A stretch of DNA of 12,028 bases from Deltaproteobacteria bacterium. Its GTDB lineage: Bacteria > Myxococcota_A > JAADFL01. The notes below the pieces were generated by a model, which worked only from the letters and a program-made list of their open reading frames with translations, was not told where the DNA came from and did no database searches. Location: the NCBI GenBank assembly GCA_013152945.1, contig JAADFL010000215.1, positions 1-12,028 of the forward strand, read 5' to 3'. The position numbers and the translations under genes are program-made. Shown piece by piece: positions 1 to 12,028 of this stretch. Within the stretch, counting starts at the first letter, position 1. Each line of letters opens with the position of its first letter.

Positions 1-772
1 CAGTACAGTGCTTTTCCCATGTCTTTACCAGGATATCTCCACCACAACCTGTTTTGCTGCACTCGTACTCCTGCCACGAGTCACAGACATGATCAGGAAG
101 ATAAAACACGTGATTCGCTGTGTCACAGCATTCACCTGTAGTGCAAACCCTGGTATCCGTATCGGTGTCCGTATCAGTATCAGTGTCTGTATCCGCGTCT
201 GTATCAGTGTCAGTATCAGTGTCAGTATCCAGGTCAGTATCAGTGTCTGTATCCGTATCAGTGTCTATATCAGTGTCTGTATCTGTATCAGTGTCTATAT
301 CAGTGTCCGTATCTGTATCAGTGTCAGTATCTGTATCTGTATCAGTGTCTGTATCTGTATCAGTGTCTGTATCTGTATCAGTGTCTGTATCCGCGTCTGT
401 ATCAGTGTCCGTATCAGTGTCTGTATCCGTGTCTGTATCAGTGTCTGTATCCGTGTCTGTATCAGTGTCTGTATCCGTGTCTGTATCAGTGTCTGTATCC
501 GTATCCGTATCCGTATCAGTGTCTGTATCGCCTACGCATTTCCTTCTGCAGTACCCGTCAGTACAACACTGTTGGCCGGCCGGGCAGTTATGGCCGGAAT
601 CGTCACACTTGAATCTGGTGGCAGTGTAGTCCACGCCCTTGCAGGAGATGCATGACAGAGACATGACCACCAGTAGGGGCACCGGAAAATAGAACCATGA
701 AAAAGCCATCGAGACTGCAACATGCTTGCAGTGCCGTATGGAAAATCCAAAACCGCGATTGTTTTCATCCAT
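1..772 (-). CDS. Cys-rich exported protein with (Asp-Thr)n linker, 3' end outside window
   Basis: The frame is open from 772 to the left edge (257 codons), so the C-terminus is missing. The ATG at 772 has an AGGAG (783-787) 10 nt upstream; an in-frame ATG at 709 has no clear ribosome site. Residues 22-44 form a hydrophobic export signal ending at Cys41/Cys44. The lipobox is imperfect (no Leu at -3), so lipid attachment is possible but unproven. Residues 56-79 are a small Cys module (CPAGQQCC, then GYC and KC). Residues 82-207 are 63 Asp-X dipeptides. A second Cys-rich domain begins at about 207 (VCTTGECCD, then single Cys and a CGG) and continues off the window. Proteins with this plan are common in Myxococcota-type genomes and are generally taken to be secreted or surface-exposed. 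The function is unknown. The gene lies 161 bp downstream of the TIG lipoprotein on the same strand and may have its own promoter. Confidence 0.85.
   Translation of the reverse strand, partial: MDENNRGFGFSIRHCKHVAVSMAFSWFYFPVPLLVVMSLSCISCKGVDYTATRFKCDDSGHNCPAGQQCCTDGYCRRKCVGDTDTDTDTDTDTDTDTDTDTDTDTDTDTDTDTDTDTDTDTDTDTDADTDTDTDTDTDTDTDTDTDTDTDTDTDTDTDIDTDTDTDTDIDTDTDTDTDTDLDTDTDTDTDTDADTDTDTDTDTDTDTRVCTTGECCDTANHVFYLPDHVCDSWQEYECSKTGCGGDILVKTWEKHCT
152..529 (-). repeat. Hexanucleotide coding repeat encoding 63 Asp-X dipeptides
   Basis: Read on the minus strand, this is 63 hexamers of the form GAY-NNN with no interruption. Asp (GAT or GAC) is kept at all 63 sites. The second codon is Thr in 58 units (ACA, ACT, ACG and ACC all occur), Ala in two (192-198 and 390-396 area), Ile in two (266-268, 296-298) and Leu in one (230-232). 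A 24-bp higher-order period is visible at about 409-500. The result is a highly acidic, probably extended linker between two Cys-rich domains. Plus-strand frames read as Val-Ser runs and are shadows. Confidence 0.95.
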
Positions 773-825
773 GCCCAATAATCTCCTACCCATGTTTATC
801 CGCGTACCGTATTTTATGGAGCATG

Positions 826-7743: not shown

Positions 7744-9300
7744 ATGTTAGAAACCCTGAGCAAAGGATTCCGTGCCGCCAAGAGAAAACTTTCAGGTGTC
7801 GCTGAAATTCATGAGGATGACATAGACGAGGCCTTACGTGAAGTAAGGATGAGCCTGCTCGAAGCCGATGTAGACTTTAAAGTAACGAAGAATTTCCTGA
7901 ACAGGGTGAGGGAAAAGGCCGTCGGCGAGGTCGTAAGACTGTCCGCCAAGGCCAAGAACAGGAAAGTCAAGGTAACACCGGCCGAACATTTCATCTCAAT
8001 CTGCAAGCAGGAGCTGGAACATCTCATGGGACCGGTCGATACTTCCCTGAACTATGAAAGACATGTCTCGGCCATCATGATGGTGGGCCTTCAAGGTTCA
8101 GGTAAGACCACTACTGCAGCCAAGCTGGCCAGGTTCATAAGGGATTTTCAAGCCAGGAAGCCCATACTTGTGGCTGCCGACGTGTATCGGCCGGCGGCAA
8201 TCGACCAGTTGAAGGTTCTCGGGGAACGTCTCGGTGTACCGGTTTACTACGAAGATTCGGGTGACCCCATAGGAATATGTTCCAGGGCACTCGAAACAGC
8301 CAAGGACAAGGGCTGTGACACGGCTATCTTCGATACTGCCGGCCGGCTGGCCATAGATGACACATTGATGAACGAATTGGAGAAGATACAGGAGAAGACA
8401 TCTCCGGAAAACATACTTCTCGTAAGCGATGCAATGATTGGTCAGGATGCGGTCCGCACAGCATCTGAGTTTAACAGGAGATTGGAACTCACCGGTTTCA
8501 TACTTACCAAATTGGATGGTGATGCAAGGGGAGGAGCCGCCCTGTCAATAAAGGAGGTGACAGGCAGACCCATAAAGTTCATTGGAATGGGCGAGGGCCT
8601 GGACCAGCTCGAAGAATTCAGGCCGGATGGCCTTGCATCAAGGATCCTGGGCCTGGGCGACATCGTGGGATTGATGCAGGACTTCGAGTCCGTTGTCGAC
8701 GCGGAAAAGGCTGAAAGAGATGCAATGCGCATGCTCCGGGGAAGGTTTACGATGGATGACTTCCTGGAGCAGATCCGCACACTCAAGAAAATGGGATCGT
8801 TGAGTGACCTGTTCGAAAAGCTTCCCATGTTTCCGGACGGTCTACCTGAAGGAATGGCAGTGGACGATACCCAGCTATTGAAAATCGAGTCCATAATACA
8901 GTCCATGACAAAAAAGGAACGTTTGAAACCGGAAATCATAGATCCCAGCAGGGTTGTTAGGATAGCTACCGGATCAGGCCGTAAGGTACAGGATGTTGAA
9001 GAACTGCAACAACGTTTTCTGGCCATGAAGGAAATGATGTCCGCCATCGGTACACAGCCCGGTCTCCTCTCCAAGATTCCCGGTTTCAAACAACTGGGGC
9101 AAATAGGCCAACTTCGCAAGATGCTCAAGCAAAAAGGTGGAAGGCAGCCCATGCCCCTTGGCATGGAAGATGATGGCAATTTTCCTGCAGGGCCGAGGCC
9201 CAAGACCGACGAAGAGAGGAAAAAGGCTAAAAAATTTCGAAAAAAATTAAAGGAACAGAGACGAAAGTCAAAAAAGAAAAAGAAAAAAAAGAAAAAATAG
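7744..9300 (+). CDS. ffh: Signal recognition particle protein Ffh (SRP54)
   Basis: 518 aa; GAGGAG (7733-7738) lies 5 nt before the ATG. Ffh binds 4.5S/SRP RNA and the signal sequences of nascent membrane proteins, and with the FtsY receptor delivers ribosomes to the translocon. The N domain (1-105) contains ALREVRMSLLEADVD. The G domain carries G1 GLQGSGKTTT (115-124), DVYRPAA (146-152), G3 DTAGR (197-201) and G4 TKLDGDARGG (255-264). The M domain (about 300-440) is Met-rich and has the RNA-contact segment SRVVRIATGSG (402-412) followed by VQDVEEL. All essential motifs are present. The usual length is about 450 aa; the excess is a C-terminal tail (about 478-518) that becomes almost pure Lys/Arg and ends in ten consecutive Lys. 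The 3' end is A-rich (9228-9298). No rpsP (S16) follows, unlike the arrangement in many proteobacteria, and no SRP RNA gene was recognised nearby. A 5-bp hairpin at 9314-9327 has no T-run and is not a convincing terminator. Confidence 0.98.
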   Translation: MLETLSKGFRAAKRKLSGVAEIHEDDIDEALREVRMSLLEADVDFKVTKNFLNRVREKAVGEVVRLSAKAKNRKVKVTPAEHFISICKQELEHLMGPVDTSLNYERHVSAIMMVGLQGSGKTTTAAKLARFIRDFQARKPILVAADVYRPAAIDQLKVLGERLGVPVYYEDSGDPIGICSRALETAKDKGCDTAIFDTAGRLAIDDTLMNELEKIQEKTSPENILLVSDAMIGQDAVRTASEFNRRLELTGFILTKLDGDARGGAALSIKEVTGRPIKFIGMGEGLDQLEEFRPDGLASRILGLGDIVGLMQDFESVVDAEKAERDAMRMLRGRFTMDDFLEQIRTLKKMGSLSDLFEKLPMFPDGLPEGMAVDDTQLLKIESIIQSMTKKERLKPEIIDPSRVVRIATGSGRKVQDVEELQQRFLAMKEMMSAIGTQPGLLSKIPGFKQLGQIGQLRKMLKQKGGRQPMPLGMEDDGNFPAGPRPKTDEERKKAKKFRKKLKEQRRKSKKKKKKKKK

Positions 9301-9679: not shown

Positions 9680-11017
9680 ATGAGCAACCAAACAAAAACA
9701 GAAGATTGCCTTCCCACTATTGAGAAGATCCTGGCAGTGGCAAGTAAAGGCAGCAATGCCGCAGTCAACCTGGTGGAGCTGGTCCGGCGTGGCCATGAGT
9801 TCGAAGAGGAAAAAGCCGATCTTGCCATGGAACAACATGATTTAATGATCAACCTTGTGAAAAACTCTGAAAAACGAAACGAGATGGCCCAGCAACGCAC
9901 CGAGTGCTCTTTACAGCTTGTGAAGTGCGCCAATGTACGTACTGACTTGGCTGAAAAGCGTACCGCACTTTCCAACCGATTGGTGAACAACTCAGACCGC
10001 CGTACGGATTATGCTGAAAAACGCACGGAAATGATGCAGAAACAGACCAAGTTGTCCACAAAAAACATGGAGATGGCTCAAAAACGGACAAATTTTGCCA
10101 CACATCGTACTGAACTTGCCGAACATCGAACCAAGCTCGCAGACAATCGCACCGAGCTCGCGAATGGACGCACCGAGCTTGCAAACAAACGAACCAAGCT
10201 TGCAGACAAGCGCACCGAGCTCGCAAATGGACGCACCGAGCTTGCAAACAAACGAACCGAACTTGCAAACAAACGAACCGAACGGGCTGAATACCGCACA
10301 AAACTCTCCCAAAATCGAACCGAACTCGCCGACAAACGAACCGAACTTGCAAACAAACGCACCGAACGGGCTGAATACCGCACAAAACTCTCCCAAAATC
10401 GAACCGAACTCGCGGACAAGCGCACTGAGCTTGCAAATGGACGCACCAAGCTTGCAGACAAACGAACCGAACTTGCAAACAAGCGTACCGAACGGGCTGA
10501 ATACCGCACAGAACTTTCCAAAAATCGCACCGAGCTTGCGAGCAAGCGCACTGAACGGGCTGAATACCGCACAGAACTTTCTAAAAATCGCACCGAGCTT
10601 GCGGACAAACGAACCGAGCTCGCAAATGGACGCACCGAGCTTGCAAACAAGCGCACTAATTTATCAACCAAGCGTACAGGGTTGGCAAAAGGCAGGAATC
10701 ACCTGGCCGGCCTGCGAACACACCTTTCATGTTACCGAACCCTGCTGGCCAAGGAAAGAACCATGTTGGCAATCATACGCACAGGCCTGGCATTGATTGC
10801 TTTTGGAACAGGCCTGATGCGATATTTCGGCTTCGGTCTCTGGACCATCCTGGACGTTACGCTCGTATTGATTGGGGTCACCATGCTGGCTTATGCCTGC
10901 CGCAAATACCTGGCTACGTACCGGGATGATTCCCGCTTGTTGAAGCTGCTCGAAAAACGCCTCGGAAAAATAGAAGAATTTGTCGACATGGAGGCGACTT
11001 TACCGGAAAAGGAGTAA
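9680..11017 (+). CDS. DUF202 membrane protein with giant Arg-Thr heptad-repeat domain
   Basis: 445 aa from the ATG at 9680, preferred because GAGAGG lies 9 nt upstream; a TTG at 9650 would add ten residues. Residues 1-50 are non-repetitive. From residue 59 to 367 every seventh position (59, 66, 73 ... 367) stays in one phase. Arg-Thr occupies 38 of these 45 heptads, typically R-T-E-L-A-x-K. The final units (RTHLSCYRTLLAKERTMLA, ending at 364) are the DUF202 signature and lead directly into two likely membrane helices (about 366-384 and 388-407). A cytoplasmic-looking helical tail (416-445) follows. DUF202 (YidH-like, related to the membrane part of eukaryotic Vtc polyphosphate polymerases) normally has only a few such heptads. 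Expected form: a long, possibly coiled-coil helix on the cytoplasmic side, anchored in the inner membrane; up to about 46 nm if fully helical. The function is unknown. The gene stands alone, convergent with a histidine kinase 57 bp downstream. Confidence 0.9.
   Translation: MSNQTKTEDCLPTIEKILAVASKGSNAAVNLVELVRRGHEFEEEKADLAMEQHDLMINLVKNSEKRNEMAQQRTECSLQLVKCANVRTDLAEKRTALSNRLVNNSDRRTDYAEKRTEMMQKQTKLSTKNMEMAQKRTNFATHRTELAEHRTKLADNRTELANGRTELANKRTKLADKRTELANGRTELANKRTELANKRTERAEYRTKLSQNRTELADKRTELANKRTERAEYRTKLSQNRTELADKRTELANGRTKLADKRTELANKRTERAEYRTELSKNRTELASKRTERAEYRTELSKNRTELADKRTELANGRTELANKRTNLSTKRTGLAKGRNHLAGLRTHLSCYRTLLAKERTMLAIIRTGLALIAFGTGLMRYFGFGLWTILDVTLVLIGVTMLAYACRKYLATYRDDSRLLKLLEKRLGKIEEFVDMEATLPEKE
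10100..10666 (+). repeat. 27 tandem 21-bp units encoding RT heptads, with 84-bp and 63-bp higher-order copies
   Basis: Residues 141-329 of the DUF202 protein are 27 uninterrupted 21-bp units. Superimposed on this, the marker GAACGGGCTGAATACCGCAC recurs starting at 10280, 10364, 10490 and 10553. The spacings are 84, 126 and 63 bp, all multiples of 21. The 84-bp pair is nearly identical at DNA level, so block duplication has occurred on top of single-unit expansion. Third-position changes (CGA/CGC, CTT/CTC, GCA/GCC/GCG) distinguish many units and the frame is never broken, which suggests selection on the protein sequence. Confidence 0.93.
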
Positions 11018-11074: not shown

Positions 11075-12028
11075 TTAATTGGGATGTCTTCTCTTATGCG
11101 ATTTTAGCAACACCCTGAAAACAGCTCCCCCGGCTCGCCCGCTATCCACTTCGACCTTGCCCCCGTTCAACTCGACAAGCCGCTTCACTATGGCCAGGCC
11201 AAGCCCCACGGATCCCCTGGACCTGCCTGAAACGTACGGCTCGAAAATCTTCTCCCTGTCCGAGTCTGCAACGCCCTCCCCTTCGTCCTCCACCTCTATC
11301 ACCTGCCAGCCCGCTTCCTTCCCGGAGACCGCGAGACGAATAGTACCGTTTTCAGGGGAATGCCTGACTGCATTTGCAACGAGATTGTCCAAGGCCTGGG
11401 CTATACGGTGCGAATCCACTTCCGCCGGTTCAAGCTCTTCTTCAATATCAATGTCCACCTTGATGCCCTTGCCGGCCCCTGAAAGTTCAGCAGTACGCCC
11501 CGCGGACCTGGCCAGGTCGCCAAGCTTTACCGGTTCGCGCCTTATCGAGAATTCACCCTGGTCAAGGGCCGCCAAATCAAGGATATCCCTGATGAGAGTG
11601 CCCATCATGGAAGCCTCTTGACTGATTGACTCAAGGTAATCGGCTTTCTTTTTTTCGTCCAGCTTGGCCCAGTAGACCTCGAGAATTTCAGCGGCATTGC
11701 CTATGGCGCTCAACCTGTTTTTCAGGTCGTGGGAACACACAGCCAGAAAATCACCCATTGCCCGGTTGCTCTTTTCGAGCTTCTCATTGGCCTCGGCGAG
11801 CTTGTGGTTCAACAGGTCGACCCTTGCACTGTACCTGGACATTTTTCTCCGGTTCTTGTCCATTAGTGCTGTTGCCAAGACACCCACGGCAAGTGAAGAA
11901 AAGACTGACAGGAAGCCGATGGCCATGTCGATGTTGGTACTGGAATACATGAAAAGTGCAATCCAGTATGCTATCGCGATCGGCAAGGTAAAAAGCAGGA
12001 ATTCAACCATGGTGAACGGCACGAAAAG
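11075..12028 (-). CDS. Membrane sensor histidine kinase, 5' end outside window
   Basis: The frame is open through the right edge. A GTG at 12022 and an ATG at 12010 are possible starts, but codons before them are also hydrophobic, so the N-terminus is probably cut off. Numbering from 12022 gives 315 aa. Membrane helices lie at about 6-26 and 32-54, followed by a linker helix (60-90). The HisKA segment has the phosphoacceptor His98 in SHDLKNRL; the Pro usual at His+5 is Arg. The ATPase domain has the N box DNLVANAVRHS (212-222), G1 DEGEGV (246-251), the F box FEPYV (260-264) and G2 GSVGLGLAIVKRL (270-282). All catalytic boxes are intact, so it should autophosphorylate. No large periplasmic sensing domain is visible in the part present. 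No response regulator lies in the window, so its partner is unknown. It is convergent with the DUF202 gene, with a 57-bp gap and no clear bidirectional terminator. Confidence 0.92.
   Translation of the reverse strand, partial: LFVPFTMVEFLLFTLPIAIAYWIALFMYSSTNIDMAIGFLSVFSSLAVGVLATALMDKNRRKMSRYSARVDLLNHKLAEANEKLEKSNRAMGDFLAVCSHDLKNRLSAIGNAAEILEVYWAKLDEKKKADYLESISQEASMMGTLIRDILDLAALDQGEFSIRREPVKLGDLARSAGRTAELSGAGKGIKVDIDIEEELEPAEVDSHRIAQALDNLVANAVRHSPENGTIRLAVSGKEAGWQVIEVEDEGEGVADSDREKIFEPYVSGRSRGSVGLGLAIVKRLVELNGGKVEVDSGRAGGAVFRVLLKSHKRRHPN

Follow-up and report, generated by a model that had tools for sequence, protein, structure and literature searches.

A DUF202 membrane protein with a long arginine-threonine heptad rod and a probable link to two-component signalling

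The locus described here raises the question of what a small membrane domain might do when the helix that leads into it is preceded by a very long run of heptads headed by arginine and threonine. To our knowledge DUF202, although widespread, has no known function outside the yeast VTC channel. The analysis suggests that the rod protein, previously undescribed, probably acts as a membrane stalk or channel linked to signalling: a literature search, with subscription journals outside its reach, found no description of such rods, of the related 3+2 arrays or of their kinase link, and nothing relevant on the Desulfovibrio tmc-operon or on the module as a whole.

The heptad rod and its membrane domain

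The window, the whole stretch of 12,028 nucleotides that was analysed, contains a rod-DUF202 gene with an ATG start (9680..11017, forward strand, as are all of its parts) that encodes 445 residues plus a stop. The protein begins with a mostly helical cap that contains no RT heptads (residues 1-58; 9680..9853), followed by degenerate heptads that are in phase with the rest (residues 59-135; 9854..10084; LVKNSEK, QTKLSTK, NMEMAQK and others) and by a rod core of 29 consecutive heptads of the RTxLAxx type (residues 136-338; 10085..10693). The DUF202 domain, PF02656 (residues 353-414; 10736..10921), comprises TM1, which is continuous with the rod helix (about residues 364-383; 10769..10828), and TM2 (about residues 388-408; 10841..10903), and a basic, amphipathic C-terminal helix (residues 409-439; 10904..10996) would lie on the cytoplasmic side, judging from receiver (REC) fusions in relatives. 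The R-T signature heptads RTLLAKE RTMLAII RTGLALI directly abut TM1.

All 38 RT dipeptides of the protein, which lie between residues 73 and 367, are in one phase (mod 7), and the in-phase count never exceeded 7 when the protein was shuffled 20,000 times. Residues 59-373 make up 45 heptads, 38 of which begin with RT, exactly as the sequence-only reading had counted them; the unbroken RT run consists of residues 136-338 plus 346-373, with a single RN heptad at 339. That reading had also described a one-phase array entering a DUF202 domain with two membrane helices, with which the open reading frame, the Pfam match and the hydropathy profile (membrane stretches at about 361-383 and 383-408) agree. 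The mismatch to the DUF202 profile over residues 340-410 that it had named as evidence against itself is absent, the match at residues 353-414 having an E value of 3.8e-10 and a score of 40.5 bits, the curated cut-off being 23.4; nor do the rods of homologues align to an unrelated coiled-coil family, but to the DUF202 signature heptads. Membership of DUF202 is firm, and no second DUF202 was found in the 4.84 Mb of the source assembly searched, the one in the rod gene being the sole representative. ATG14, FBF1 and SMC (Pfam, NCBIfam) were rejected as kin, being composition matches below the cut-off.

Heptad positions 1, 2, 4, and 5 of the window protein are conserved (entropies of 0.67, 0.77, 1.59, and 0.96 bits), with Arg, Thr, Leu, and Ala or Ser, respectively, to give an R-T-L-A face, whereas positions 3, 6, and 7 are variable (2.08, 2.94, and 2.70 bits) and mainly occupied by Glu, Asn, Lys, Asp, and Gln, with E/K pairs; this division is common to the other four groups of proteins. 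On a coiled-coil wheel the four conserved positions are contiguous, with Arg and Ala central. The pattern hpphhph, with an interface at a, d, e, and g, is that of type-2 coiled coils, which form α-helical barrels in designed peptides (PMC8503928), and positions 1, 2, 4, and 5 of the rod fit d, e, g, and a of this pattern. The rod shares with the designed barrels (PMC8503928) the conservation of these four interface positions but has Arg and Ala, respectively, at positions d and a in place of Leu/Ile; it is also natural, membrane-anchored and about ten times longer. A natural, Arg-centred coiled coil of such length would be new to coiled-coil design.

Related rods

About 37 related rods, of roughly 12 to 40 heptads, were found in Desulfobacterota, Acidobacteriota, Myxococcota, Zixibacteria, and Gemmatimonadota, and every one of them keeps its phase relative to the membrane helix. 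A scan of about 85,000 species genomes with a degenerate DNA pattern that combined eleven R-heptads with TM1 gave 23 loci, all of them true DUF202 rods, and further rods in Desulfobacterota and Acidobacteriota came from searches with a profile of 97 columns (A1); within the phylum of the source genome, the profile search found rods in 4 of 377 genomes, counting that of the window. Peptide-pattern scans of genome contigs gave no relatives, the patterns being situated in repeat or private regions, and the matches to a four-heptad DNA pattern in the same phylum were for the most part 21-bp tandem repeats that are unrelated to the rod and lie in other frames. No rod relative was present in the viral contigs scanned, and tblastn against phages and plasmids returned coiled-coil noise together with two true DUF202 loci.

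The relatives fall into group a (Desulfobulbaceae and others), with 12 R-heptads and a response-regulator receiver domain fused behind TM2; group b (Desulfofervidaceae, Desulfohalobiaceae, Desulfonauticus and kin), with 22-38 heptads; group c (Syntrophaceae, Myxococcota, Zixibacteria and others), with 20-31 heptads, which contains the nearest kin of the window protein; and group d (Acidobacteriota, Gemmatimonadota), with 13-27 heptads. It should be noted that the rods of L044, L046, L049, L056, and L060 are shortened by contig ends or a frameshift. The window protein, with 44-45 heptads, is the longest found, but its source is a draft assembly of 218 contigs, in which the repeat number could err by whole units. 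Lengths differ between relatives by whole heptads with a constant phase to TM1, and in L047, L054, L061, L052, and L118 the rod starts with an LIxLAEKxNELAxxRT motif that resembles residues 59-135 of the window protein. Ordinary members of DUF202, among them E. coli YidH and proteins from Leptolyngbya and Neorhizobium, share with the rod the profile match and the R-T-x-L-A heptads that enter TM1, but have only about 3 heptads in register (some 10-11). The rods form a subfamily of DUF202 proteins whose pre-TM1 helix is extended by whole heptads. With respect to the distribution of long forms, the count across homologues places long rods in several phyla, and the DUF202 tree (87 rows, 80 columns), being weakly resolved, is compatible with a single long-rod origin but cannot show one.

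Several individual loci have features of their own. On a Leptolyngbya plasmid (L041, 3959-5401), a DUF202 domain with about 11 RT heptads is fused to a multi-TM segment resembling a transporter of the bile-acid/sodium-symporter type, in a cluster that holds three more DUF202 genes and DUF1622; on a Neorhizobium plasmid (L042, 3540-8420), a DUF202 gene with 10 heptads is situated beside arylsulfatase genes and DUF1622, which therefore accompanies DUF202 in both. In Desulfothermus (L049, 2540-3397), the upstream portion of the open reading frame carries the repeat in another frame, the rod being cut by a frameshift or by an error in the assembly. In genome G178, the Myxococcota rod gene (L018, 1-1053, forward strand) is convergent with a gene resembling an arsenite efflux transporter of the ACR3 type.

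Two-component genes and 3+2 arrays

The rods of group b and the DUF202 arrays described below are followed by genes for a HAMP-type histidine kinase and then a stand-alone receiver, and the gene order rod, kinase, receiver is found in L050, L053, L056, L060, L123, and L125. In one lineage, receiver and rod form a single fusion protein, a Rosetta-stone link that was found in eight loci (L043, L045, L048, L051, L055, L058, L059, and L063); next to the fusion genes of group a is a gene for a PPDK_N/PEP-utiliser protein of about 854 residues. Several rods of Acidobacteriota are adjoined by a kinase and preceded by a cytidylate-kinase-like gene. When the kinase of the L050 rod operon was used as query, its best match was the DUF202-adjacent kinase in 9 genomes from two phyla, against a background of 25-42 HisKA genes per genome. 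A single family of HAMP histidine kinases, together with receiver proteins, is co-encoded and co-inherited with both the rods and the arrays. The arrangement of a HAMP histidine kinase with a stand-alone receiver is shared with single-domain receiver (CheY/DivK-like) systems, but the candidate target here is a DUF202 membrane assembly rather than the flagellar motor or a transcription factor.

The arrays are operons that encode one protein with three DUF202 domains followed by one with two, in all eight cases in which both genes are in hand (L124, L126, L127, L129, L130, L131, L132, and L134). Each domain has about six R-heptads ahead of TM1, the first heptad of the third domain beginning with T. 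The N terminus is MshEN-like, kinase and receiver genes lie downstream, and a histidine kinase accompanies the array in all array loci. In L126, Pfam identifies an N-terminal MshEN domain in both proteins, and the fold match for the three-domain protein is also MshEN, of the c-di-GMP-binding type. The MshEN domain led the fold list for the array model, and VTC chains were not among the rows listed, which is not evidence against a shared fold.

At the locus itself the situation is different. An orthologous HAMP kinase with a receiver is absent from beside the DUF202 gene of the window; the gene convergent with it encodes a membrane histidine kinase (HisKA plus HATPase_c; 11075..12022, reverse strand) that was dropped as a candidate partner, not being an orthologue of the rod-operon kinase by the L050 query. 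Such a neighbour has about a 2% chance of occurring, and for this reason carries little weight. No histidine kinase adjoins the group c rods in the loci seen, although a REC-SpoIIE gene is near one of them (L118), so that for the window protein the two-component link is drawn from the subfamily at large. The best match to the L050-type kinase over its full length is located away from the rod gene both in group c and in the window genome. In the latter it lies on another contig (G000 contig C63, 1-6417; L162), in a cluster encoding a receiver, this HAMP kinase, a second receiver, a TauE/SafE permease and a Cytidylate_kin2-like protein; the cluster is likely to be the partner module of the window rod. 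The kinase homologue in L165 is surrounded by TauE, Alph_Pro_TM, Cytidylate_kin2, and PPDK_N, and L164 and L166 have similar open reading frames.

Candidate assemblies of the rod and the age of the array

In yeast VTC, the polyphosphate channel is formed by five TM1 helices, its wall includes Lys24 and Arg31 of Vtc1, Lys622 and Arg629 of Vtc4, and several residues of Vtc3, and it is narrowest at Arg31, Arg629, and Arg709 (PMC9911596). In the deposited chain of Vtc1, VEPK(24)VFFANER(31)TFLSWL, Arg31 corresponds to the Arg in the ERT signature of DUF202 and Lys24 lies one heptad before it; Arg353 and Arg360 of the window protein are in register with Lys24 and Arg31. The Arg column of the rod continues the pore-lining register of VTC in the N-terminal direction, which is a statement about register only. 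It should be recognized that a profile of the C-terminal region searched against the PDB did not retrieve Vtc1, giving unrelated chains, mostly sodium channels, with E values of 0.1 or worse, and that a fold search with the model of the window protein gave no significant match, the VTC chain 9umg_A ranking 31st (E 0.66); the basis of the link to Vtc1 is membership of DUF202 together with the alignment of the signature. The window protein and the Vtc1/Vtc3/Vtc4 complex (PDB 7ytj, 8i6v, 9umg) have in common the DUF202 domain and the heptad register of their basic residues, which in VTC line the channel of five TM1 helices, but differ in that the window protein has no polymerase domain, has two TM helices in place of the three of Vtc1, and carries a very long, probably cytoplasmic, extension.

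The reading that we prefer, and to which we give about an even chance of being correct, is that of a cytoplasmic, probably pentameric, coiled-coil stalk with inward-facing Arg, mounted on the DUF202 membrane domain and working with a two-component module. Since receiver fusion places the C terminus in the cytoplasm and there are two TM helices, the chain would be N-in/C-in and the rod a stalk that reaches up to about 46 nm into the cytoplasm. DUF202 units, probably five, would stand side by side with Arg (d) and Ala (a) inward, and the Arg column would extend the basic ring around the VTC pore of five helices; the 3+2 helices of equal length in the array operons are suggestive, by analogy, although not proof, of a pseudo-pentamer like that of VTC (3 Vtc1, Vtc3, Vtc4). 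The assembly would be the membrane partner, and probably an output, of a module that includes a HAMP histidine kinase, a stand-alone receiver, a TauE/SafE permease, a cytidylate-kinase-like protein, a PEP-utilising protein and Usp, and phosphorylation of the receiver might alter its state, for example by gating. The pentamer, the lumen and the gating are elements that we infer, and the lumen could conduct anions, hold bound anions, or be closed. A more specific proposal, a five-fold, Arg-lined α-helical tube of up to about 46 nm that leads into the DUF202 pore and is gated by the kinase and receiver, acting as a novel type of anion conduit or an anion-filled mechanical stalk, is speculative and, taken as a whole, unlikely. 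The rods and 3+2 arrays make it possible to test whether bacterial DUF202 proteins are pentameric with a VTC-like basic lining and whether they are under two-component control, and direct genetic and biochemical handles are available in the fusions of receiver and rod and in the conserved operons of DUF202, kinase and receiver genes.

A simpler arrangement, in which the rod is a dimeric or trimeric cytoplasmic spacer or scaffold with no lumen or channel that sets the distance between the membrane and a partner such as a kinase or receiver, is possible, if somewhat unlikely. The repeat would then be kept for its length and stiffness, with Arg providing salt bridges between helices, and this would be consistent with the E/K pairs on the variable face, with receiver domains fused at the opposite end in some members, and with lengths that vary freely by whole heptads among close relatives (38 in L123, 30 in L125, 36 in L137, and 27 in L053). 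However, Arg at the center of the conserved face would be costly for the core of a dimer, and the five DUF202 domains encoded by array operons, with their six-heptad helices of equal length, and the pentameric state of the VTC DUF202 domains are further points against it.

The AlphaFold2 model of the window protein contains helices at residues 26-148, 157-248, and 259-383, the last of which runs from the rod into TM1 with good confidence, and its breaks, near residues 150 and 253, make a folded-back bundle possible in place of a straight stalk. That the rod is a three-helix bundle of helices of about 100 residues is nevertheless improbable: the breaks (149-156 and 249-258) have pLDDT values under 50 in a model with a pTM of 0.32, the heptad phase and R-T-L-A pattern continue uninterrupted across both, and such a bundle could not be kept in relatives of 12 to 38 heptads.

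The sequence-only reading had envisaged a membrane-anchored helix with an Arg stripe that might bind polyphosphate, nucleic acid or acidic lipid. In its favor are a net charge of +33 over 308 residues of the rod and the inclusion in the DUF202 family of the VTC polyphosphate channel, the pore of which is lined in a matching heptad register. We regard a polyanion-binding arm of this kind as an improbable explanation. An exposed Arg stripe that grasps polyphosphate is not supported, since Arg is in the middle of the conserved R-T-L-A face, which should be buried, and the outer, variable face is a mixture of Glu, Lys, and Asn; genes for polyphosphate, DNA or lipid functions were not recurrent neighbours of the rods in the loci examined. 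Polyphosphate in particular is unlikely as the ligand because the source genome has neither the VTC polymerase domain (PF09359), in a search with positive controls, nor PPK1 (PF02503). What the gene context indicates is two-component signalling.

The rod contains an 84-bp tandem unit, equivalent to four heptads, in 2.3 copies at 94% match (10248..10437, forward strand), as well as an exact repeat of 53 nt, and tandem duplication has thus occurred within it. The divergence at third codon positions between units spaced by four heptads is 0.58, as compared with 0.17 at positions 1 and 2, a 3.4-fold excess; the amino-acid pattern therefore predates the duplications still visible, and, with long rods present in several phyla, the array is taken to be old and maintained by selection, not freshly expanded. 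The earlier proposal that the whole rod arose by duplication of the DUF202 signature is borne out to the extent of these internal repeats, and growth from the signature itself is plausible, although the tree cannot be rooted to show the origin. That the rod is a neutral product of slippage with no function, as the 84-bp unit at 94% identity might by itself suggest, is very improbable in view of the excess of third-position changes and the retention of phase and of R-T-L-A in long rods of several phyla.

Two other genes of the window have unusual repetitive sequences. At positions 2-793 (reverse strand), a probable lipoprotein contains an Asp-Thr dipeptide tract of about 100 residues, whose tandem DNA repeat has long open frames on the opposite strand also. 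Directly upstream of the rod gene (7744-9300, forward strand) is the gene for Ffh (SRP54), which has an unusual poly-lysine tail, KSKKKKKKKKKK.
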